A stretch of DNA of 64,000 bases from Methylophaga nitratireducenticrescens (lineage in GTDB: Bacteria; Pseudomonadota; Gammaproteobacteria; Nitrosococcales; Methylophagaceae). Position numbers and translations under genes: made by a program. The DNA lies in NCBI RefSeq assembly GCF_000260985.4, contig NC_017857.3:2905001-2969000 (forward strand). Direction: 5' to 3'. Below the pieces are notes generated by a model, which was given only the letters and a program-made list of their open reading frames with translations, was not told where the DNA came from and did no database searches. Of the stretch, positions 48,306 to 63,193 are shown piece by piece; position 1 is the first letter of the stretch, and every line of letters starts with the position of its first letter.

Positions 48306-49499
48306 CTAAACTTTAAATTTGGCTGACGCGTCCTGCAATTGAGATGACAGGCTACTAAGTGTATCCACTGCTTCCGAAGTGGCACGTGCACCATCTGCAG
48401 TATGATCAGCAATCTGACTGATATTAACAATACCACGATTGATATCTTCAGCAACTGAACTTTGTTCATTGGCCGCATTTGAAATCTGCGTACTCATCTC
48501 ATCCATGGTCGAAATCATTGCCGTAATCGTATCGAGCGCGGAACCTGCACTTGCAGCTTTTTCGACACTGGTCTTGGCACTTTCCCGGCTTTCATTCATG
48601 ACTTTCACGGCAGCACGGGCACCTTGCTGCAAACGCTCTACCATTTCTTCAATTTCGTGAGTGGATGACTGTGTTCTGGCAGCAAGCGTGCGAACTTCAT
48701 CGGCAACAACCGCAAAACCACGTCCATGCTCACCTGCACGAGCGGCTTCAATAGCAGCATTCAATGCCAAAAGATTGGTTTGCTCAGTAATGCCGCGTAT
48801 GACATCAACGATTGCACCGATATTGCCGATATCCGCTTCGAGTTCACTTAAGGTCTCAGCCGCTTTTTCAACTTCGCTGGCCAGAGTATCAATAGACTGC
48901 ATTGTCTCCAGTACTACCTGTTTGCCGGCTTTCGCTTCATTATCGGCATTTCGTGCCGCCTCAGCAGCATTGGTTGCAGTTCGGGCTACTTCCTGAACAG
49001 AAGCGGTCATTTCATTCATCGCTGTCGCGACTTGATCAGTCTCTTCCTGCTGTTTTAATACTCCCGTCACCGTTTCTTTACTGATGACAGTCATGTTTTG
49101 GGTCGCGGTATTCAGCTGGCTGACACCACCAATCAAAGTGTGCACCAGATTGGCAACATTTTTGCGAGCACTGTCGAGTTCAAAAGCCATCCAGCTGAAA
49201 TCGCTTCTACCGGAAATGGCAATTTTTTGCGTGAGGTCGCCTTTCTTAATATTCTGAATGCCATTGACCAATGTGGTTGCGCGCTTGTCACCAAAACGTC
49301 CAATGACATGTGCCATGAACATGATCAGTGCACTACCGATAACAACAAATCCTCCCACCACTTTAAGCTGTTGCTTCGAGGTAACCGCGTTCAGTTCCAT
49401 GTAGAACATTAACCCGGCCAGCAGCAGCAAACCGATAATGCCAAAACCGGCAACAATGTACATGCGTTTTCTCAGCGAATAATTCTCTAACTTAAACAC
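48306..49499 (-). CDS. methyl-accepting chemotaxis protein without sensor domain
   Basis: The 397-residue protein has two membrane helices (about residues 13-35 and 46-66) separated by only about ten residues, so it lacks a periplasmic ligand domain. A HAMP-like linker and the full chemoreceptor signalling domain follow, with the tip [20 protein letters not shown] and [15 protein letters not shown]. The start is GTG after AAGGGAGA. It lies 40 bp after fliK, at the end of the flagellar cluster. Its stimulus is unknown; it could sense a membrane or energy state or a partner protein. Confidence 0.93.
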
Positions 49500-49538: not shown

Positions 49539-50810
49539 TCATGCAAACACACTCACACCGACACTATTATCTGGTGAATCAACTGATAACTGTGTTGCTT
49601 CATTGTCAATATCGTCCGTTTCAATAATAACTTGAGCTATATTATTGCCATCATGTAACTGCTCATCCTGTTCAGAACCCTGTGAAGGCTGATCCTGATG
49701 GCTTACTTCAGCATTATTTAATGCCAATCCGCTTTCGTTGAAACTCTCACGTAATCTCGGCAGAGCCTGCTCCAAAGCATCCCGGGCTGCTGCATTTGAA
49801 GCAATAAAAGTAACATTGGTCTGATCATTTTGCATGCTCAATCTGACCTCTACAGGACCGAGATTAGCAGGATTCAGCCTTAACTCTGCTTGTTGAACCC
49901 CCTCACGCGCCATCCAAACCACTCGGCTACTCATCACTTTGCCCCAAGCTGAACTGTTAAGCTGAGGTTGTATATCCAGCGATAAAGCGGGATTAGCAAC
50001 ACTCGGCGTACCAGCCACTGATGTGGTCATACCCGGTATGGTGGAAAATGCCAAAGGACTACTGAGTTTGCTGGCTGAACTTCTCTCCGCCTGAGGATCG
50101 AGTTGCCGCATCGCGGAAATTGTTTCGGCACTGGCTGTCATCAACTGTTCCGGCGTTTTTCCTGCCGTTTGCATCATTAACTTAACCTTTTCCGTGGTAA
50201 CCGCATCACCTTCCACATTTTGCTTCTGAATTGCCTGAAGTATATCTGCACGGATTGAAGTTGCTGAAAAATCTGCATTATTCGATTTGCTCTGCATCTC
50301 AAGCACAGATTTTTTCATATCTTTATCACCGGACTGTGGAGTATTTATGAATGGCGTTGTGTCGAGTCGCTGCTTTTCCGTTTTCTTATCCGTTACGGGT
50401 GCAACAGCCACAATCATTAAAGGATCACTTTTATTCTCACTTTCACTCTTATCAGTTTTGCCGTCAGTATCGACAATGATTTCTTTAGTCGGTGCTTTTT
50501 CGGATTCCTGTTCTGAACTGTCAGCTGTTGTTTCCGCCTTTTCTACCTTTTCTTCTTTTTCAGGCGGCAATTCTTTGCCGTCTTTTGTATCCGGTTTTTC
50601 CGCTTTAGTAGTTGTTTCAGTCTGTTTATTATCTGTTTTAAGGTCATTCCTGGCCGGTTTATCTTTATCTGATCGTTGAGGTTCATTTAGCCGACGATCC
50701 AGTTCCGACGCAAAGGCCTCATTATCTTTACTGTTGGCAGCAGAAGTTATGGCTTTGTCTGTTTTGTTCGGGGCAACATTCAGCGAGGAGAGGGTCAGCT
50801 GTTGCGTCAT
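49539..50810 (-). CDS. fliK: flagellar hook-length control protein FliK
   Basis: FliK measures hook length and switches export specificity. The 423-residue product has a long low-complexity region rich in Lys, Glu and Thr (about residues 20-180) and the conserved carboxy domain (AELRLNPANLGPVEVRLSMQ, AARDALEQALPRLRESFNES). It is separated from fliJ by the chemosensory block and has its own sigma-54-type promoter 55 bp upstream. Confidence 0.95.
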   Translation of the reverse strand: MTQQLTLSSLNVAPNKTDKAITSAANSKDNEAFASELDRRLNEPQRSDKDKPARNDLKTDNKQTETTTKAEKPDTKDGKELPPEKEEKVEKAETTADSSEQESEKAPTKEIIVDTDGKTDKSESENKSDPLMIVAVAPVTDKKTEKQRLDTTPFINTPQSGDKDMKKSVLEMQSKSNNADFSATSIRADILQAIQKQNVEGDAVTTEKVKLMMQTAGKTPEQLMTASAETISAMRQLDPQAERSSASKLSSPLAFSTIPGMTTSVAGTPSVANPALSLDIQPQLNSSAWGKVMSSRVVWMAREGVQQAELRLNPANLGPVEVRLSMQNDQTNVTFIASNAAARDALEQALPRLRESFNESGLALNNAEVSHQDQPSQGSEQDEQLHDGNNIAQVIIETDDIDNEATQLSVDSPDNSVGVSVFA

Positions 50811-50865
50811 TTCATTTCCTTAAACTCTGGTTAGTAGCCGTATAGCACTGTTATAAGTAATGAAT

Positions 50866-50882
50866 AGCAATGGCTGTGCCAG
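50866..50882 (-). promoter_or_regulatory. sigma-54 promoter of fliK
   Basis: The minus strand reads CTGGCACAGCCATTGCT, an exact match to the TGGCAC-N5-TTGCW consensus with 10 bp between the GG and GC pairs. The fliK ATG lies about 57 bp beyond the -12 element. It sits just after the stop of the globin-type gene. Confidence 0.75.
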
Positions 50883-50892
50883 ATTCTATATT

Positions 50893-52239
50893 TCATAGTT
50901 CGGTATTTTTAGTGATTACTTTAATCAACTGCGTTAATGCATTGGTTTGCTCAGACAACTGCTGGTTGATTTGCTCTATGGAATGGCGGCTGCGATTTTC
51001 CCAACCGATATGATTATGCGTAAGATCTTTTTCCAGTTGCTGTGAAAGCTCAATGCTTTTATTCAGCTGTTGCTGCTGCTGACCAGACTGAATTTTCAAA
51101 GGTTGAAGCAATTGACTCAATTGTTGGTTCAGCACTCTAATTTCCATTGAAAAGTCACGAAGCTGACGCGCATCATCACCCAGCTTTGCCGCTTCAACAG
51201 TACAATTTAACGCCAGCAGGCTGGTTTCAAACACAGCGTCATCTATTTCCTGCAACATGGCAGTTAAATGACTGTTTTGCAGTTGAACTTGGTAAAGCGT
51301 TTTTTCCAGTGCCGGTAGAATATTTTGTGCTAACGAAGCGGTATCGTTCGGCGTTGAAGAGAGCGATAGACCTGAATCAGTCGCACTATGAGGATAACAT
51401 TCGAGCAGAAACCCCTCGGGCTTATCATTTTTGTAAAGAACCGAAATCGTTAATCGCACATCCAAAAAGTCATTGCGTAAATCAATACTTTTAGGCAGCT
51501 GATCGAAATCACTTAGCCACTCAATTGGGAAGGGAACTGCTTCAGCGAAATGTTGTAACGAAACACCTTTAAGCCTCTCAACATTAAGATCTGGAAACAT
51601 TTTTTTGAGACTGTCTTGATATTGTTTTAGCAGGGTTTCTGCCGCTACATTGAGGTAACTTACCACCAGATTTAAATCGATAATAATCATTGGCGTGGCA
51701 GTTTGCTCGACGGCTAACGAGGTAAGCACATATTCTGCTAACGGAGCTTGGGCTGTTTGATAAACCGTGACCGGCTCGGCTACCTGACTGGCAGGAGTCT
51801 GCATCAGCTCAGCCACATACTCCAGAACGTTTCTCCAGGCTTGCTGTAACGTGTCATCCCATTCTTGCTCAGAAAATTCGGCAACCACGGATAACCAGTT
51901 TTCGATGAACATCTCATAGTGGGATTGTTTGACACCATATTGCTGATGTCGCACCCCCAACCCCTGAAGATAATCTTCGATCATTTCCGTGTCACGTAAA
52001 TGCTGGATCAACAAAACCATCGATGCGAGTAATTTCTTATGTTGCCCTTCAATCGTGACTGATTTGAACAACGGCATTATCGCCGGGTATTCAGCAAATA
52101 ATCGCTGATAAAAGCGCTCCGCTAATGCATCACTAAAACTCATTAACGCAGCAAAATTATGCTCGACCAGGGTTATATCTTGCTCATCCAGCCCTGCCAG
52201 TCCACTAATAGGATGATGTTGTAGAGCATTCTCAGCCAT
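50893..52239 (-). CDS. globin-PAS-chemoreceptor-tip fusion protein
   Basis: A soluble 448-residue protein with three parts. Residues about 14-146 are a flavohaemoglobin-like globin with candidate haem residues Tyr44, Phe58, Gln66 and proximal His98 (GLGVRHQQYGVKQSHYEMF). Residues about 167-282 look like a PAS domain. Residues about 305-375 resemble a chemoreceptor tip (FETSLLALNCTVEAAKLGDD) but are degenerate and lack the usual glycine pattern; a glutamine-rich coiled coil follows. There is no membrane helix. Its start overlaps the stop of the ParA-like gene by one base. I infer a haem-based oxygen, NO or redox sensor feeding the adjacent CheA and CheW. Confidence 0.85.
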   Translation of the reverse strand: MAENALQHHPISGLAGLDEQDITLVEHNFAALMSFSDALAERFYQRLFAEYPAIMPLFKSVTIEGQHKKLLASMVLLIQHLRDTEMIEDYLQGLGVRHQQYGVKQSHYEMFIENWLSVVAEFSEQEWDDTLQQAWRNVLEYVAELMQTPASQVAEPVTVYQTAQAPLAEYVLTSLAVEQTATPMIIIDLNLVVSYLNVAAETLLKQYQDSLKKMFPDLNVERLKGVSLQHFAEAVPFPIEWLSDFDQLPKSIDLRNDFLDVRLTISVLYKNDKPEGFLLECYPHSATDSGLSLSSTPNDTASLAQNILPALEKTLYQVQLQNSHLTAMLQEIDDAVFETSLLALNCTVEAAKLGDDARQLRDFSMEIRVLNQQLSQLLQPLKIQSGQQQQQLNKSIELSQQLEKDLTHNHIGWENRSRHSIEQINQQLSEQTNALTQLIKVITKNTEL

Positions 52240-52955
52240 CAGTCTGCTCTTCCCAATAGCAAATCGTTTGCCAGAGACTGATAATCAGCTGGATTCGCAG
52301 ACGCGTTATCGTATATCACCGTTTTTAGCACTCGTTTCGGAAAATACTGTGTCAATAAATCACCAAACTGGTAGGCAAAATCAGTACCGTCCGGCAATCT
52401 ATTTAAACATAACCATAACCTTATTGAATCAGATCTCAATTTTGACACCCGTTGCAATACTGGTAGCATTTTTATCATACCGCGCAATGCACCATGCTCC
52501 GCAGATACTGGAATCAGCATATCACTCGCAGCCAAAACAGCATTGGTGCCTAATAATCCTGAGATTGCTGCACAATCAATCAGAATGATATCCGCATCTG
52601 ATTGTATTGTCGAAGTAAGTAGTTGCTTCAGTTTAACACCAAGTTTTATTGATGGTGTTTGCTGTTCGAACAAATGCAGCTCAGGACCCGACGCGATTAA
52701 AGACAGTTGTTCGCTTAGTGGTAGTATTAAATCACGGGCATCGTCTTTAAAAGAGAGTAAAGCATCCATCCCGATTTGCGTTTCAGATACCCCAAATTGT
52801 CGGGTTAGATCAGACTGTGGATCCAAATCCAGCATCAGTACCCGATAACCCATTTCTGCCAAAATCACACCCATATTTGCGGTGATGGTAGTTTTACCGA
52901 CATCATGGGTCTGATTCATAACAGCAATAATTCGTTTTGTCCCTAGCCCAACCAT
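52239..52955 (-). CDS. ParA/MinD-type ATPase with altered Walker A motif
   Basis: The 238-residue protein is a ParA-family ATPase: an amino-terminal P-loop (MNQTHDVGKTTITANMGVIL), the conserved VLMLDLDPQSDLT, and the Walker-B-like IILIDCAA. In the usual motif KGGVGKTT the first lysine binds the partner's ATP; here it is Thr16, with His17 and Asp18 in place of the two glycines. Lys21 is kept. In chemosensory clusters ParA-like proteins (ParC) place arrays at the cell pole; that role is suggested by position only. Confidence 0.85.
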   Translation of the reverse strand: MVGLGTKRIIAVMNQTHDVGKTTITANMGVILAEMGYRVLMLDLDPQSDLTRQFGVSETQIGMDALLSFKDDARDLILPLSEQLSLIASGPELHLFEQQTPSIKLGVKLKQLLTSTIQSDADIILIDCAAISGLLGTNAVLAASDMLIPVSAEHGALRGMIKMLPVLQRVSKLRSDSIRLWLCLNRLPDGTDFAYQFGDLLTQYFPKRVLKTVIYDNASANPADYQSLANDLLLGRAD

Positions 52956-52958
52956 GGT

Positions 52959-53423
52959 TTAATTCTGTCCCTGTAGCAATTGCTCAAATAGATTAGCTAT
53001 ATCAAGTAAATGAATCTGTTGTGAATCATCCTTCACACTATTTATCAGGCACTGATGTGTGGATGAGCTTGAAGCCATTTCAGCAAGCTCTGATGGGTAC
53101 ATAAGAATCGTCAGGTCGGTAACACTAAGTCCGAGTAATCGTTGAGAGTCCAGAGGGTGGTGTAACAAAACCAGTAATGGACAGTTTGACTGATGCGCAG
53201 GATCGTCAACTTCAATCAACTTATTTATATTAATGACCGGCACAATCGCATTGCGAACATGTACAACGCCAGATAACCATGAGGCCGTGCCAGGCAGTCG
53301 TAATATATTTTCCAACGCCAGGACAGTCGTAATGCAGTGGACTGGAAGCGCATATTGCTGGTCATTGATAACGATCAGCTGATAAAGATCATTTTCCAAT
53401 GTCAGGTTAGCAGCCGATTTCAT
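52959..53423 (-). CDS. CheW-type coupling protein
   Basis: A 154-residue single CheW domain (YQLIVINDQQYALPVHCITT, WLSGVVHVRNAIVPVININK) that would link a receptor to CheA. It overlaps the cheA-like stop by 4 bp. It is not obviously related to a second CheW in the window. Confidence 0.9.
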   Translation of the reverse strand: MKSAANLTLENDLYQLIVINDQQYALPVHCITTVLALENILRLPGTASWLSGVVHVRNAIVPVININKLIEVDDPAHQSNCPLLVLLHHPLDSQRLLGLSVTDLTILMYPSELAEMASSSSTHQCLINSVKDDSQQIHLLDIANLFEQLLQGQN

Positions 53424-55312
53424 TGCTCACCGGAAATAGTAAGTGACATCAGCAGTTTGCCAGGATCGATCAGTAAAGCAATATTTCCCTCATTCAGTAT
53501 TGCCACCCCCTTGACCCCGTTTACATGTCGATAATGAGGAAGTAAGGACTTAACCAGCAGTTGGGCCTGTTCAGCCAAACTGTCTACCGCCATTGCAAAA
53601 ACACTGTTTTCAGTATTGACTAAAACGATAAAACCGGACTGCTCGTCTGTTTCTCGCACAGGCAACTGCAGGAATTGGCGAATATCAATCAATGGTACTT
53701 GCCGGTTATCATCTGTGATAAACCACTTTTTGCCTCGATGCCAGACTAACCTGCTGCTATCAGCAGCATAACTATCCAGCACATTTATTAATGGCAATGC
53801 CAGCGTTTGTTGATCAACATCAATGAGTTGTACATCCATTAAAGCCTGATGTACAGGTATATAAAGGGTAAAACAGCATCCCCTGCTGTTGCTCGAAATC
53901 AACTCAATCCGCCCTCCCATATCGGTAATATGTTGCTTCACAACATCCAATCCGATACCTCTTCCGGAGATAGCATCTGCTGTTACTGCGGTGGAAAAGC
54001 CTGGTCGAAATACCCAGTCACTGAGTCGTTGTTGATCGAGCTTACTCCCCTGCAAATTGACCCCTAGCTGTTTTGCTTTGGCCAGAATTTTTTCTTCAGA
54101 TAAACCAGATCCGTCGTCACTGAATCGAATGATCAATTGCTCATCAACTTGTTCAGCAATAATGTGGATCTGGCCTTTTACAGGTTTGCCGGACTGTTGG
54201 CGAAGCTCGATGGGTTCGATTCCATGGGCGAGGGTATTTCGCAAAAGATGGGTTAATGGATCCATCAACGAATTGACAATCATACTATCCACTTCAATAG
54301 GCGCGATATCCATATTCAACTGGATCGGTTTATCGGTTTTATTCGCCAGATCAAACGCCATGCGGGGTAATCTTGCAAAAGCATCGGCCAATGGACGCAT
54401 CGAAATATGTAACAGTTGCTGTTGCAATAATTGTTGTTGATGTTTCATCGCCTGATTACGGCGGGTCAATCGAATTTTATCCGTTTGATTTAACTGGTTG
54501 GTCAGTGCAAACGTCTGCTTTAGCTGGGTCTGTAATGTATGTGAAACGGTTAATAATGCTTGCAGATTGGCCTCGCTCATTTTGTAGCGATTTGGCTCAT
54601 TAACTCTTTTGGACTGCGGTAAAGCCAATACTTCTACCGTGACATCACAAACATGTTTTACCCAGTCAAACAGCGAGATAATTTTTTGGTAGCTTACTTC
54701 CGCAGTAAGTGTTATCTGCCAGCGCAGGTAACATTTATACAGGTCAAAATCTGCAAAATCGGGTAATTTATCAGTGAAGACGGAAACTTTTACCGGACCA
54801 AACTGGCGTAATGATTTGATAATTCGTAATGGATCATGGCCGTTTTCAAAAAACTGCGGATACGGTACAAAATCAATTTGCCAGACAGAACCATTCATTT
54901 CCGACACAATCGGTGGTTTACGATTATTCTGATTTTGCTTATCCCGACGATTCATCCCAGCAAGGCAATTTGCCAGTTTTTCATCTTGTAATGCTGGATC
55001 TGATTCAGATCCACTTAAGCATTGCCGGCAAAAATCAATTGCCACCAGTAGGCCGTCCCTGTCATGGCTGCTAAGTTGGCGGTTTTCCGTCAGAATATTT
55101 TCTATTGCATGACAAACCTTTGCTATAGCTTCATTTTCGAAACTGGCGGCAGTCCCCTTGAGGGAGTGCAACAGCCTGAGAGTATCTTGCCTATGAGCAT
55201 CTCCCTTACTGGAACTATCCAATGATGTTAATAGCCAATCCTCTATTTGATTTAAAGTTTCCAGAGCTTCCTCATGAAAAGCAGCTGTTGCAGAGGATAA
55301 AAGCGGATGCAT
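53420..55312 (-). CDS. CheA-type histidine kinase
   Basis: The 630-residue hybrid starts with an Hpt domain (phospho-acceptor His49 in LLHSLKGTAASFE), then a region around residues 143-235 like the middle part of ChpA-type kinases (VWQIDFVPYP...GHDPLRII), a dimerisation segment, a catalytic domain with N box (NTLAHGIEP), DDGSGL and GRGIGLDVV, and a carboxy CheW domain (residues about 490-628). It has no receiver domain. Twelve bases separate it from the CheY-like gene. The ribosome site is weak. Confidence 0.93.
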   Translation of the reverse strand: MHPLLSSATAAFHEEALETLNQIEDWLLTSLDSSSKGDAHRQDTLRLLHSLKGTAASFENEAIAKVCHAIENILTENRQLSSHDRDGLLVAIDFCRQCLSGSESDPALQDEKLANCLAGMNRRDKQNQNNRKPPIVSEMNGSVWQIDFVPYPQFFENGHDPLRIIKSLRQFGPVKVSVFTDKLPDFADFDLYKCYLRWQITLTAEVSYQKIISLFDWVKHVCDVTVEVLALPQSKRVNEPNRYKMSEANLQALLTVSHTLQTQLKQTFALTNQLNQTDKIRLTRRNQAMKHQQQLLQQQLLHISMRPLADAFARLPRMAFDLANKTDKPIQLNMDIAPIEVDSMIVNSLMDPLTHLLRNTLAHGIEPIELRQQSGKPVKGQIHIIAEQVDEQLIIRFSDDGSGLSEEKILAKAKQLGVNLQGSKLDQQRLSDWVFRPGFSTAVTADAISGRGIGLDVVKQHITDMGGRIELISSNSRGCCFTLYIPVHQALMDVQLIDVDQQTLALPLINVLDSYAADSSRLVWHRGKKWFITDDNRQVPLIDIRQFLQLPVRETDEQSGFIVLVNTENSVFAMAVDSLAEQAQLLVKSLLPHYRHVNGVKGVAILNEGNIALLIDPGKLLMSLTISGEQ

Positions 55313-55324
55313 GGCAATCGAAAA

Positions 55325-55687
55325 TTAATTAAGCAGTGAGTTGACAGTATCAATCAACTGTTCAGGATCAAACGGTTTTGTTAACCATCCACTGGCACCT
55401 GAAACACGGCCAAGATTTTTTTTGTCTTCATCTGTTTCCGTTGTTAACAACAGTACTGGGGTAAAGCGGTATTGCGGTAACAAGCGAAGCATCGTTATGA
55501 ATTCAGGCCCAGTCAGTTGAGGCATATTAAAGTCACTTAATACCATTTCAAATTGTTGCTCAGTCGCCATGTCAATGCCCTGTTTACCATCTTCTGCGCA
55601 CATCACATCATGGCCTGAATTCTGCAAAATAATCTGTAACATCTGTCTGAGCGAAGGTGAATCATCGACGACTAGAATCCGGGCCAT
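55325..55687 (-). CDS. CheY-like response regulator, receiver only
   Basis: A 120-residue single receiver domain. Asp8, Asp9 and the phospho-acceptor Asp52 (VLSDFNMP), Thr near 82 and Lys near 103 (WLTKPF) are all present. The start was set at MARILVVDD, one base after the STAS stop, with GGAGAA upstream; a longer frame begins in the STAS gene. No output domain, so it probably acts on the motor or on another partner. Confidence 0.94.
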   Translation of the reverse strand: MARILVVDDSPSLRQMLQIILQNSGHDVMCAEDGKQGIDMATEQQFEMVLSDFNMPQLTGPEFITMLRLLPQYRFTPVLLLTTETDEDKKNLGRVSGASGWLTKPFDPEQLIDTVNSLLN

Positions 55688-55688
55688 G

Positions 55689-56006
55689 TTAGTTATTCTC
55701 CATTGAATCATTATCGGCAACTGATGGCTGATCGGTCATTTTAAAAGATAGACCGGAAAGACTTACGGCATCCTGAAAGCTATCACTCATCACAGACCAG
55801 TGCACCTGAATATCATATTTCTCTGCCTGTTGTTGAAATTGATAGAGTAATTGTAACGCCGCGGTATCAATACGTTGCAAACGGCTAACATCAATAAATA
55901 CATTATTTCCTGCCAGCAGAATTTTTAAACATTGCACATACCATGACTCCAGTTGAGTGATGGTTAACTGTTCTCCACAATCAAGGTTTTCTGTTGTATT
56001 CGTCAT
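55689..56006 (-). CDS. STAS-domain protein
   Basis: A 105-residue STAS protein (anti-sigma-antagonist fold), with FIDVSRLQRIDTAALQLLYQ. The residue at the usual phosphoserine position is Thr48. A longer frame beginning with TTG would add 18 residues and is less likely. It is the first gene of the block, 137 bp after fliJ, with a sigma-54-like promoter in the gap. No RsbW-like kinase is in the window, so its partner is not known. Confidence 0.85.
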   Translation of the reverse strand: MTNTTENLDCGEQLTITQLESWYVQCLKILLAGNNVFIDVSRLQRIDTAALQLLYQFQQQAEKYDIQVHWSVMSDSFQDAVSLSGLSFKMTDQPSVADNDSMENN

Positions 56007-56121: not shown

Positions 56122-56139
56122 AAGCAGAGACTATGCCAG
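56122..56139 (-). promoter_or_regulatory. sigma-54-type promoter before the STAS gene
   Basis: The minus strand reads CTGGCATAGTCTCTGCTT: TGGCAT at -24, CTGCT at -12, 10 bp between GG and GC. It differs from consensus at two positions. It lies just after fliJ and would drive the STAS-to-globin genes. Confidence 0.5.
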
Positions 56140-56142
56140 GGT

Positions 56143-56586
56143 TTATTTATGTTTGCGTGCCCAGAGCATAGCGGTATGTTCATCTGCCAGTCGCTGCTCC
56201 AGTTTAAGCTGACGTTGCTCGTCTTCTTTTTGATAGCGTTCTTTGAGGGATTCAATAGATCGTTGTTTATTTTTGGCTTCCAGCCATAGCTGTCGTTGTT
56301 TTTGTGTCTGCATAAAACACTGTTCGACGTGGCGTTGTTGCATTCGAATAGCATTATCTAATTGTGCAAGAAACGATCTTAAATCAATTGCTTTGCGAGC
56401 ACTCATCTGTAAAGCGTCGCCTTGTCGGAATTGTTGCAGGTACTCTTCGCGATAACGCAGTAAATCATTAAGCTGATGTTTTTCCTGCTCAAGCACGTTG
56501 TTGGCCTGAACCAGGCTTTGCATAGCTTTATCGGTCTCGCGACCGGCCATTTCAATCACTGGTATCAGTTTGCTTGCCCGCGTCAT
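56143..56586 (-). CDS. fliJ: flagellar protein FliJ
   Basis: FliJ is the soluble coiled-coil part of the flagellar export ATPase complex and chaperone recycler. The 147-residue product is almost wholly helical and charged (VEMAGRE-like start, EEYLQQFRQGDALQMSARKA). It lies 37 bp after fliI, the standard position. Confidence 0.93.
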   Translation of the reverse strand: MTRASKLIPVIEMAGRETDKAMQSLVQANNVLEQEKHQLNDLLRYREEYLQQFRQGDALQMSARKAIDLRSFLAQLDNAIRMQQRHVEQCFMQTQKQRQLWLEAKNKQRSIESLKERYQKEDEQRQLKLEQRLADEHTAMLWARKHK

Positions 56587-61807: not shown

Positions 61808-63193
61808 TTATGCAGACTTCTTGCCAAATTTTCCAGGAATGGCAATGCCCTGTTCACGAAAACGTGAGATTTTGTAGCGTAAGGTGCGTTCACTGATGCC
61901 TAATTCTTTTGCTGTCTCCCGGCGGCTACCGCGATGTTTTGCCAGTATGTCGAGAATATGACGCTGTTCGTGACTACGTAAATCATCTGCATTATCGACG
62001 GGAATAACAGTCTCACTCTGCTCTGTAACAGGTGTCGCGTTTAGTTCATTTGTGGTTTGCTGAGCTCCCGACATAGCTTCATATGCCAAATCATCGGCGT
62101 TAATGATTGAGCCGGTTTGTAAAATTAACGCCCGTTGCAGAACATTATCGAGTTCCCGAACATTTCCCGGCCAGTTGTGTTGCGACAGTTTTCTTTTTGC
62201 TTCACTGTCGAAATGCGGAGCGACCCGTCCACCTTGCTTACAATGACGTTCGAGTAACTGCTCGGCAAGCGGTACGATATCCTGAGGTCTTTCTCTCAAA
62301 GGCAATAACTGCAAAGGAAAAACATTCAATCGGTAAAATAGATCCTCGCGGAAACGGCCGGCTTTGACTTCATCACGTAAAGTGCGGTTGGTGGTCGCCA
62401 GTACACGAACATCAAGTGAAAGCGTTTTTCTGCCACCCAGACGTTCCACTTCGCGCTCCTGCAATACCCGCAGTAATTTGGCCTGCAATGAAATATCCAT
62501 CTCGGTAATTTCATCCAGCAGAATTGTGCCTTGATTTGCCTGTTCAAATTTACCAGCATAGGCTTGAGCTGCACCGGTAAACGCGCCTTTTTCGTAACCA
62601 AACAGAGTGGCTTCAAGCATGGACTCCGGAATAGCGGCACAGTTAATCGCGATAAAAGGACCATCCTTGCGGGGTGAATGCCGATGAATAAAGCGTGCCA
62701 GCACCTCTTTACCTGTGCCACTTTCACCATTTATCAAAACCGTGGCGTCAGTATCAGCAACACGTCTGGCGAGTGCCTGTAAATCAACTGACGATTTGGC
62801 AGCTGCGACCATATCATCACTGGCAGGCAGTATTCGTACATAACGTTGTACCCGCTGCAACAAATCATCAGCTTCAAACGGTTTCATTAAATAGTCACAA
62901 GCCCCTTCATGCATGGCTTCTACTGCACTTTGTACAGAACCATAAGCCGTCATCAGAACAACAGGTAATGAAGGCAACATTGCCCGGGCTTTTTTCAATA
63001 ATGTATGACCATCCATCGGTTGCATCTGCAAATCGCTGAGCAATAAGCCAATCGGTTCATTAGCCAGTTTGTCCAACGCCTTCTGCCCATGATCGGTCGA
63101 CGTCACTTTATACCCGGCAAGTTCCAGCGTGTCGCATAAAGCGGTACGTAAATTGGCATCATCTTCCACTACCATAATCATCGACTGGTTCAT
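61808..63193 (-). CDS. fleR: sigma-54-dependent response regulator FleR/FlrC-type
   Basis: The 461-residue regulator has a receiver domain (Asp54 in LLSDLQ), a AAA+ domain with Walker A GESGTGKEV and the sigma-54-contact loop GAFTGA, and a Fis-type helix-turn-helix (SRRETAKELGISERTLRYKI). It overlaps the kinase gene by 4 bp. In Pseudomonas and Vibrio this factor activates fliE and related promoters. The symbol is assigned by family and context. Confidence 0.94.
   Translation of the reverse strand: MNQSMIMVVEDDANLRTALCDTLELAGYKVTSTDHGQKALDKLANEPIGLLLSDLQMQPMDGHTLLKKARAMLPSLPVVLMTAYGSVQSAVEAMHEGACDYLMKPFEADDLLQRVQRYVRILPASDDMVAAAKSSVDLQALARRVADTDATVLINGESGTGKEVLARFIHRHSPRKDGPFIAINCAAIPESMLEATLFGYEKGAFTGAAQAYAGKFEQANQGTILLDEITEMDISLQAKLLRVLQEREVERLGGRKTLSLDVRVLATTNRTLRDEVKAGRFREDLFYRLNVFPLQLLPLRERPQDIVPLAEQLLERHCKQGGRVAPHFDSEAKRKLSQHNWPGNVRELDNVLQRALILQTGSIINADDLAYEAMSGAQQTTNELNATPVTEQSETVIPVDNADDLRSHEQRHILDILAKHRGSRRETAKELGISERTLRYKISRFREQGIAIPGKFGKKSA
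61811..61826 (-). promoter_or_regulatory. sigma-54-type promoter before fliE
   Basis: The minus strand reads TTGGCAAGAAGTCTGCAT inside the last codons of fleR: GG and GC are 10 bp apart, with a C-to-A change in the -24 element and CTGC at -12. It lies about 46 bp before the fliE ATG, a natural target of the adjacent regulator. Confidence 0.5.

Follow-up and report, generated by a model that had tools for sequence, protein, structure and literature searches.

The DNA analysed here (the window: 64,000 nucleotides of Methylophaga nitratireducenticrescens contig NC_017857.3) carries, between the flagellar genes fliJ and fliK, a block of six chemosensory genes. An original prediction made from the bare sequence had named the six products and proposed that they form a cytoplasmic sensory array coupled to the flagellum. 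The minus-strand coordinates, together with Pfam, fold and NCBIfam matches, bear out the six genes, their order, their domains and their spacing. Read in the direction of transcription and assigned by reference to the F7 stage-1 class of chemosensory operons, the site is laid out as follows:

56143-56586, minus strand: FliJ, followed by a gap of 136 bp before the STAS gene
55689-56006, minus strand: STAS-domain protein, gene 1 of F7 stage-1 operons (Pfam STAS_2, 1.4e-11), position-conserved in full F7 operons
55325-55687, minus strand: single-domain receiver, the F7 CheY (Pfam Response_reg, 1e-24)
53420-55312, minus strand: CheA of a derived F7 class, with Hpt, a P2-like region, a divergent P3, HATPase and P5 (Pfam, alignment, tree)
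52959-53423, minus strand: CheW (Pfam CheW, 4e-15)
52239-52955, minus strand: ParA-derived ATPase (Pfam AAA_31, 1e-27; tree)
50893-52239, minus strand: mini Aer2-like soluble receptor (Pfam Globin, 7e-15; fold prediction; NCBIfam)
49539-50810, minus strand: FliK, 82 bp from the receptor gene

The genes are tightly packed, with gaps of 1 bp (STAS/receiver), 12 bp (receiver/CheA) and 3 bp (CheW/ParA) and overlaps of 4 bp (CheA/CheW) and 1 bp (ParA/receptor). As originally noted, CheR, CheB, CheD and CheZ are not encoded within the six-gene block. CheD is missing from the whole host genome (3.135 Mb, single contig), and the single CheR of this genome is encoded outside the block. The genome also has a canonical CheA cluster (locus L054), a Pil-Chp type cluster (L053) and twelve matches to the signalling domain of methyl-accepting chemotaxis proteins (MCPs). 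When the gene order was looked for in relatives, five more genomes of the genus proved to have the block in the same order and spacing, in each case between fliJ and fliK, with CheA identities of 65-97%.

The original prediction had regarded fliJ and fliK as usually adjacent and the six genes as an inserted, free-standing assembly. Neither holds in this family, in which a full chemosensory operon is the normal content of the fliJ-fliK site. Most other flagellated Methylophagaceae-like genomes have a complete F7 stage 1 (Aer2-type) operon there, in the order STAS-CheY-CheA (~700 aa)-CheW-ParA-globin/PAS receptor (670-1040 aa)-CheR-CheD-CheB-McpA-like; in genome G049 the CheR, CheD, CheB, MCP and receptor domains were verified by Pfam. 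This arrangement matches the published F7 stage-1 order (STAS, cheY, cheA, two cheW-like genes, aer2, cheR, cheD, cheB, mcpA; PMC7184735), except that ParA replaces the second cheW-like gene. The window block keeps the operon start STAS-cheY-cheA-cheW and an aer2-like soluble receptor gene; cheR, cheD, cheB and the mcpA-like gene are absent from it. Since full F7 operons also lie between fliI/fliJ and fliK in Oceanospirillaceae, Oleispira and Cellvibrionaceae records (L071, L100, L081), this sequence comparison indicates that the location is old.

The same three records have a ~570-aa receiver protein after the full F7 operon, between CheB and fliK. L071 additionally encodes a 125-aa protein that matches the Hpt part of the window CheA, which recalls the HptB-HsbR-HsbA module of Pseudomonas.

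In good agreement with descent at this site, a CheA tree computed under a mixture model with closer outgroups places the window CheA inside F7, split from the F6 CheAs with 100/100 support, and nests it among the CheAs of the family's full operons at the fli locus (92/100). There the window CheAs sit beside that of G044, as the flagellar tree predicts. A first tree, with a distant ChpA outgroup and a simple model, had put them next to the root, as if they were of another class or separate origin; because the closer outgroups and mixture model move them inside F7, we take the root placement to be long-branch attraction. Insertion of a foreign block was likewise rejected, as the GC content is unchanged and relatives carry the full operon at the same place. 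These gene orders and trees indicate that the block is a reduced derivative of an F7 stage-1 (Aer2/Che2-type) operon, descended in place from the full operon.

The receptor is the most visibly reduced of the products. Pfam scores its globin clearly above the cut-off, the MCP part at 32.6 bits against a cut-off of 34.6, and PAS below threshold; the best NCBIfam model is Vibrio Aer2. Structure prediction (mean predicted local distance difference test score 71) gives a globin at residues 19-147, a PAS fold at 168-283 and an MCP helical hairpin at 299-447; the low predicted template modelling (TM) score of 0.35 probably means that the domains are not fixed relative to each other. Foldseek relates the globin to Hell's Gate globin I (closest solved structures 3wfw, 3s1i and 1vhb) and the PAS to the haem PAS of Pseudomonas Aer2 (4hi4, TM 0.81 on target). 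Globin residues Y44 (B10), F58 (CD1), Q66 (E7) and H98 (F8) are invariant in the aligned mini-receptors. With position names that we take from alignment to flavohaemoglobin and general knowledge of the family, these are the B10 Tyr, CD1 Phe, E7 Gln and proximal F8 His of flavohaemoglobin-type haem globins. They are of the kind expected where haem and O2 are bound. From the kept residues and the globin matches, the receptor globin is predicted to bind haem, and it is a probable oxygen sensor.

The remainder of the receptor has been pared down. In Aer2, H234 is a haem ligand (PMC13401364). In the window clade (eight genomes, listed below) the equivalent histidine has become Ala232 and the Trp of the LEW motif has become Cys281, so that both marks of an Aer2-type haem PAS are gone; full receptors such as that of G049 retain both. 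The predicted MCP part is cut to ~149 helical residues in total, or roughly 55-90 per stalk arm, whereas a 36H receptor has about 250. The C-terminus, ITKNTEL, is without the pentapeptide motif of a CheR tether. Trimer-contact residues of the tip are partly kept. That a soluble haem-globin sensor is tied to CheA and CheW in a flagellar locus and conserved in relatives, as originally proposed, is supported at the level of sequence.

The kinase has kept its catalytic parts. Pfam recognises Hpt, HATPase_c and CheW domains in CheA; in the alignment, Hpt H49, N359, H363, DDG399-401 and G450-G452 (the G2 box) are invariant, and hence the Hpt histidine, N box and G boxes of a histidine kinase CheA are all present. 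The receiver, read in sequence, has the DD, D, T and K motifs and is 49-56% identical to the F7 CheYs of relatives. Judged by these motifs, the residues for phosphotransfer between CheA and CheY are retained in the window clade.

The ParA-derived protein has changed at its most telling positions. Where the operon is full, its ParA usually shows the standard KGGVGKT; the window clade has THDVGKT instead (QTHDVGKT in the six whole-block genomes and G034, QTKDVGKT in G051), so that the signature lysine of the deviant Walker A motif (KGGxGKT) is gone, and an 18-residue C-terminal segment (RENVALAECPSFGKTIFD in relatives) is deleted. The first lysine of ParA/MinD proteins contacts the nucleotide of the partner subunit and is needed for ordinary ATP hydrolysis. 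Because both the lysine and the segment are lost, a canonical ParA positioning cycle appears unlikely in the window clade, and the proposal that the ParA-like protein is a usual positioning factor is not supported.

A further loss is found in the receptor. Soluble receptors encoded beside a KGGVGKT ParA have a tag, G-x-DPL[AS]W[LM], near their N-terminus (e.g. L049:11014-13407 and L199-L227); window-clade receptors are without this DPLAWL tag. Among 30 class-level loci, selected by ParA alone, the tag occurs downstream of ParA in 26, one of them with the variant DPFDWI; it was found in 0 of 68 receptors from loci without ParA. In the family tree set, it is missing in all 13 receptor-bearing genomes with a changed ParA lysine and present in 23 of the 25 with the lysine. 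On the tree this corresponds to three independent lysine changes (three pairs), which is too few for significance, and the correlation is therefore suggestive. We read the tag as a candidate ParA-binding or ParA-activating peptide; no mention of a DPLAW peptide in such a context was found in the literature searched.

On a tree of FliF-FliG-FliI-FliJ, the window block is one of several products of the same kind of loss. The adaptation genes CheR, CheD and CheB were lost at least 5-6 times in the family: in the window clade of eight (G000, G039, G041, G038, G045, G040, G051 and G034), in G050, in G016 and G024, in G012, in G028, G017, G029 and G018, and probably in G032, whose contig stops about 700 bp past the receptor. 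In G044 they are gone at fliJ-fliK, and a second F7 operon lies elsewhere in the genome. The outcomes vary. In G050, all that is left of CheA is the P5 (CheW-like) domain, and the receptor is a 361-residue protein of globin plus tip; CheA is without a recognisable Hpt histidine motif in G012, G017, G018, G028 and G029; and G028, which has lost its ParA, retains CheA-CheW-receptor. No other gene of the site persists as well as ParA, which stands alone in G024, with the mini-receptor in G051 and with a full-size receptor in G044.

The receptor tail follows CheR closely. A C-terminal [HFYW]xx[HFYW] CheR-docking tail is present in 18 of 18 receptors with CheR and absent in 15 of 16 receptors without it, the sole exception being G044. 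The minimum number of changes on the tree is 7 for CheR presence and 6 for the tether, and five of six phylogenetically independent pairs agree (p about 0.06). Such pairs are too few for significance, and the claims of joint loss, for CheR with the tether as for the lysine with the tag, rest on the raw pattern and its direction. In G044, the fliJ-fliK site (L178, G044:C1) has no CheA or CheW but retains ParA, together with a globin receptor of full size whose CheR tail is intact; the second F7 operon lies at L050 (G044:C11), and the orphan receptor may plug into that system.

All six genes of the block are maintained, since dN/dS (nonsynonymous to synonymous substitution rates, Nei-Gojobori method) is 0.06-0.35 in two close pairs. 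ParA has the lowest value or is among the lowest, and the constraint on STAS and CheW is weak in some pairs. Substitution patterns thus indicate purifying selection on the block genes, which are less strictly kept than flagellar structural genes. A 397-aa membrane MCP directly after fliK (window 48306-49499) persists in almost every genome of the family, even in those whose F7 block has shrunk to ParA, and with a dN/dS of 0.01-0.08 it is far more conserved than the block.

Three sigma54-type (-24/-12) elements of the window bear on how these genes may be transcribed:

56122-56138, minus strand: element TGGCATAGTCTCTGCTT, just downstream of fliJ; conserved, with function inferred
50865-50881, minus strand: element TGGCACAGCCATTGCTA, upstream of fliK; a consensus match only, at 11 of 12 consensus positions
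61810-61826 (written 61826-61810): consensus match before fliE

Matches of similar quality number 37 in the window, counting both strands, and the argument for sigma54 is for this reason one of conservation and not of the match itself. Of 40 family genomes, about 30 have the consensus including spacer, TGGCAYGGTCTCTGCAT, 4-177 bp after fliJ; even G051 and the ParA-only G024 retain it. The post-fliJ element thus fits a predicted sigma54 promoter and, because it is conserved, the block probably forms a unit of its own within the flagellar regulon; the element before fliK suggests separate transcription of fliK. Sigma70 promoters and terminators inside the block show no excess over shuffles. Seven loci (L047, L048, L049, L051, L055, L150 and L188) have no sigma54-type element downstream of fliJ; in several of them a GCCGATA-like sequence recurs that looks like a sigma28 (FliA) -10 box, a hint that the class of promoter has switched there.

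The reading that we favour, with moderate confidence, is that this reduced, adaptation-free F7 derivative is a non-adapting, globin-gated CheA-to-CheY switch within the flagellar regulon. O2 (or NO/CO) would be bound by the flavohaemoglobin-type globin of the soluble receptor, the haem-less PAS and short helical hairpin would relay the globin state to CheA-CheW, and CheA would phosphorylate the neighbouring CheY. Since there is no methylation memory without CheR and CheB, the response would not adapt, and the output would report the absolute gas or redox level and not a gradient, as in a two-component-like switch. This output would probably target either the workings of the flagellum or its regulon, possibly via the STAS protein, and the ParA-derived protein would probably assist the receptor, as an accessory or as a partner that binds nucleotide. 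What we infer here is the route from globin to CheA and that from CheY to its target.

Several observations weigh against such a switch. On the receptor tip, the face that contacts CheW/CheA has changed strongly (GRGFAVV to RQLRDFS), the P3 region of CheA is divergent and the window CheA stem branch is very long (5.4 changes per column in the mixture-model tree), and for these reasons kinase control may be weak or different. Within the window clade itself, G034 keeps CheA/CheY and has no receptor at the locus, while G051 has ParA and the mini-receptor and no CheA, CheW or CheY there; given the latter, the receptor may have a role independent of CheA.

The same long CheA branch and the weak constraint on STAS and CheW would also be expected of a decaying relic in which all genes are on their way out and the constraint is residual, as would the independent paring in many relatives that ends at ParA alone (G024) or ParA with receptor (G051). 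Against decay, all six genes are intact in six genomes with dN/dS well below 1, the catalytic and haem residues are invariant and the promoter element is kept, and we consider this explanation unlikely.

Still less probable, in our judgement, is a new module that would work without CheA, made up of the ParA-derived protein and the globin receptor; it might be, for instance, a gas-controlled NTP-binding switch that targets the flagellum, and CheA/CheY would be optional to it. The persistence of ParA in G024, G051 and G044 and its low dN/dS speak for such a module. However, G028 dropped ParA and kept CheA-CheW-receptor, the CheA/CheY residues are intact in the window clade, and no output is known for a ParA-receptor pair. 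Equally improbable is the originally proposed working cytoplasmic array, linked to the motor and held in position by a ParA ratchet, like TlpT-PpfA of Rhodobacter sphaeroides. Here the soluble receptor, CheA, CheW and ParA homologue do share one operon within a flagellar locus; where che operons encode PpfA homologues, cytoplasmic receptors go with them (PMC2829493); and the tip trimer contacts partly survive. Yet the clade has lost the ParA lysine, the C-terminal segment and the receptor tag, the stalk arms are down to roughly 55-90 residues and the adaptation enzymes are absent. An HsbA-type partner switch was rejected as the leading explanation, since no PP2C/anti-sigma partner lies near the block and the SpoIIE-type matches in the genome are weak.

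One may also combine the pieces: a stepwise conversion to a non-adapting gas switch, in which ParA is now a receptor partner that persists without CheA, together with a Gammaproteobacteria-wide DPLAW[LM] tag that recruits or activates ParA and is missing where the lysine is lost. As a whole we hold this joint proposal to be doubtful.

The parent F7 stage-1 system, of which the block is a reduced descendant, is already known. What is new is a six-gene form free of adaptation, a dismantling that recurred at a single locus, and the predicted ParA tag. Stepwise evolutionary disassembly of large multi-protein sensing machines is rarely visible, and here a single locus shows it in grades, with the full F7 operon at one end and a lone ParA gene at the other. 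Interface motifs are lost in step along this series, CheR with the tether and the ParA lysine with the receptor tag, so that one can test what each part of a chemoreceptor array is needed for. The block further offers a natural adaptation-free CheA system, and a short ParA-recruiting peptide is predicted in cytoplasmic receptors.

In line with the original prediction, no described system of exactly this composition was found in the literature searched. The closest are F7 stage-1 systems with Aer2-like receptors (the Vibrio cholerae F7 cluster and Methylomicrobium alcaliphilum; PMC7184735), with which the block shares the order STAS-CheY-CheA-CheW-...-soluble Aer2-like receptor, a CheA that falls inside F7 and a PAS of Aer2 type. 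It differs from them in having ParA and no CheR, CheD, CheB, McpA or second CheW, in a receptor that has a globin before the PAS and has lost the PAS haem ligands, stalk and CheR tether, and in its location between fliJ and fliK. The Rhodobacter sphaeroides cytoplasmic cluster (TlpT, CheA3/A4, CheW4, PpfA) similarly co-encodes a soluble receptor, a ParA homologue, CheA and CheW; there, however, PpfA segregates the cluster and CheR/CheB are present, whereas the block ParA is without its signature lysine and the adaptation module is missing. The HptB-HsbR-HsbA switch of Pseudomonas also unites a STAS protein, a receiver and an Hpt domain in one module, but the block has no adjoining PP2C/anti-sigma kinase, its receiver is a bare CheY and its kinase a full CheA. 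Finally, HemAT-type aerotaxis receptors are likewise soluble, with a haem globin joined to an MCP signalling domain; they differ in that the HemAT globin is of the globin-coupled-sensor type, while that of the block is flavohaemoglobin/Vitreoscilla-like, with a PAS domain between globin and MCP.

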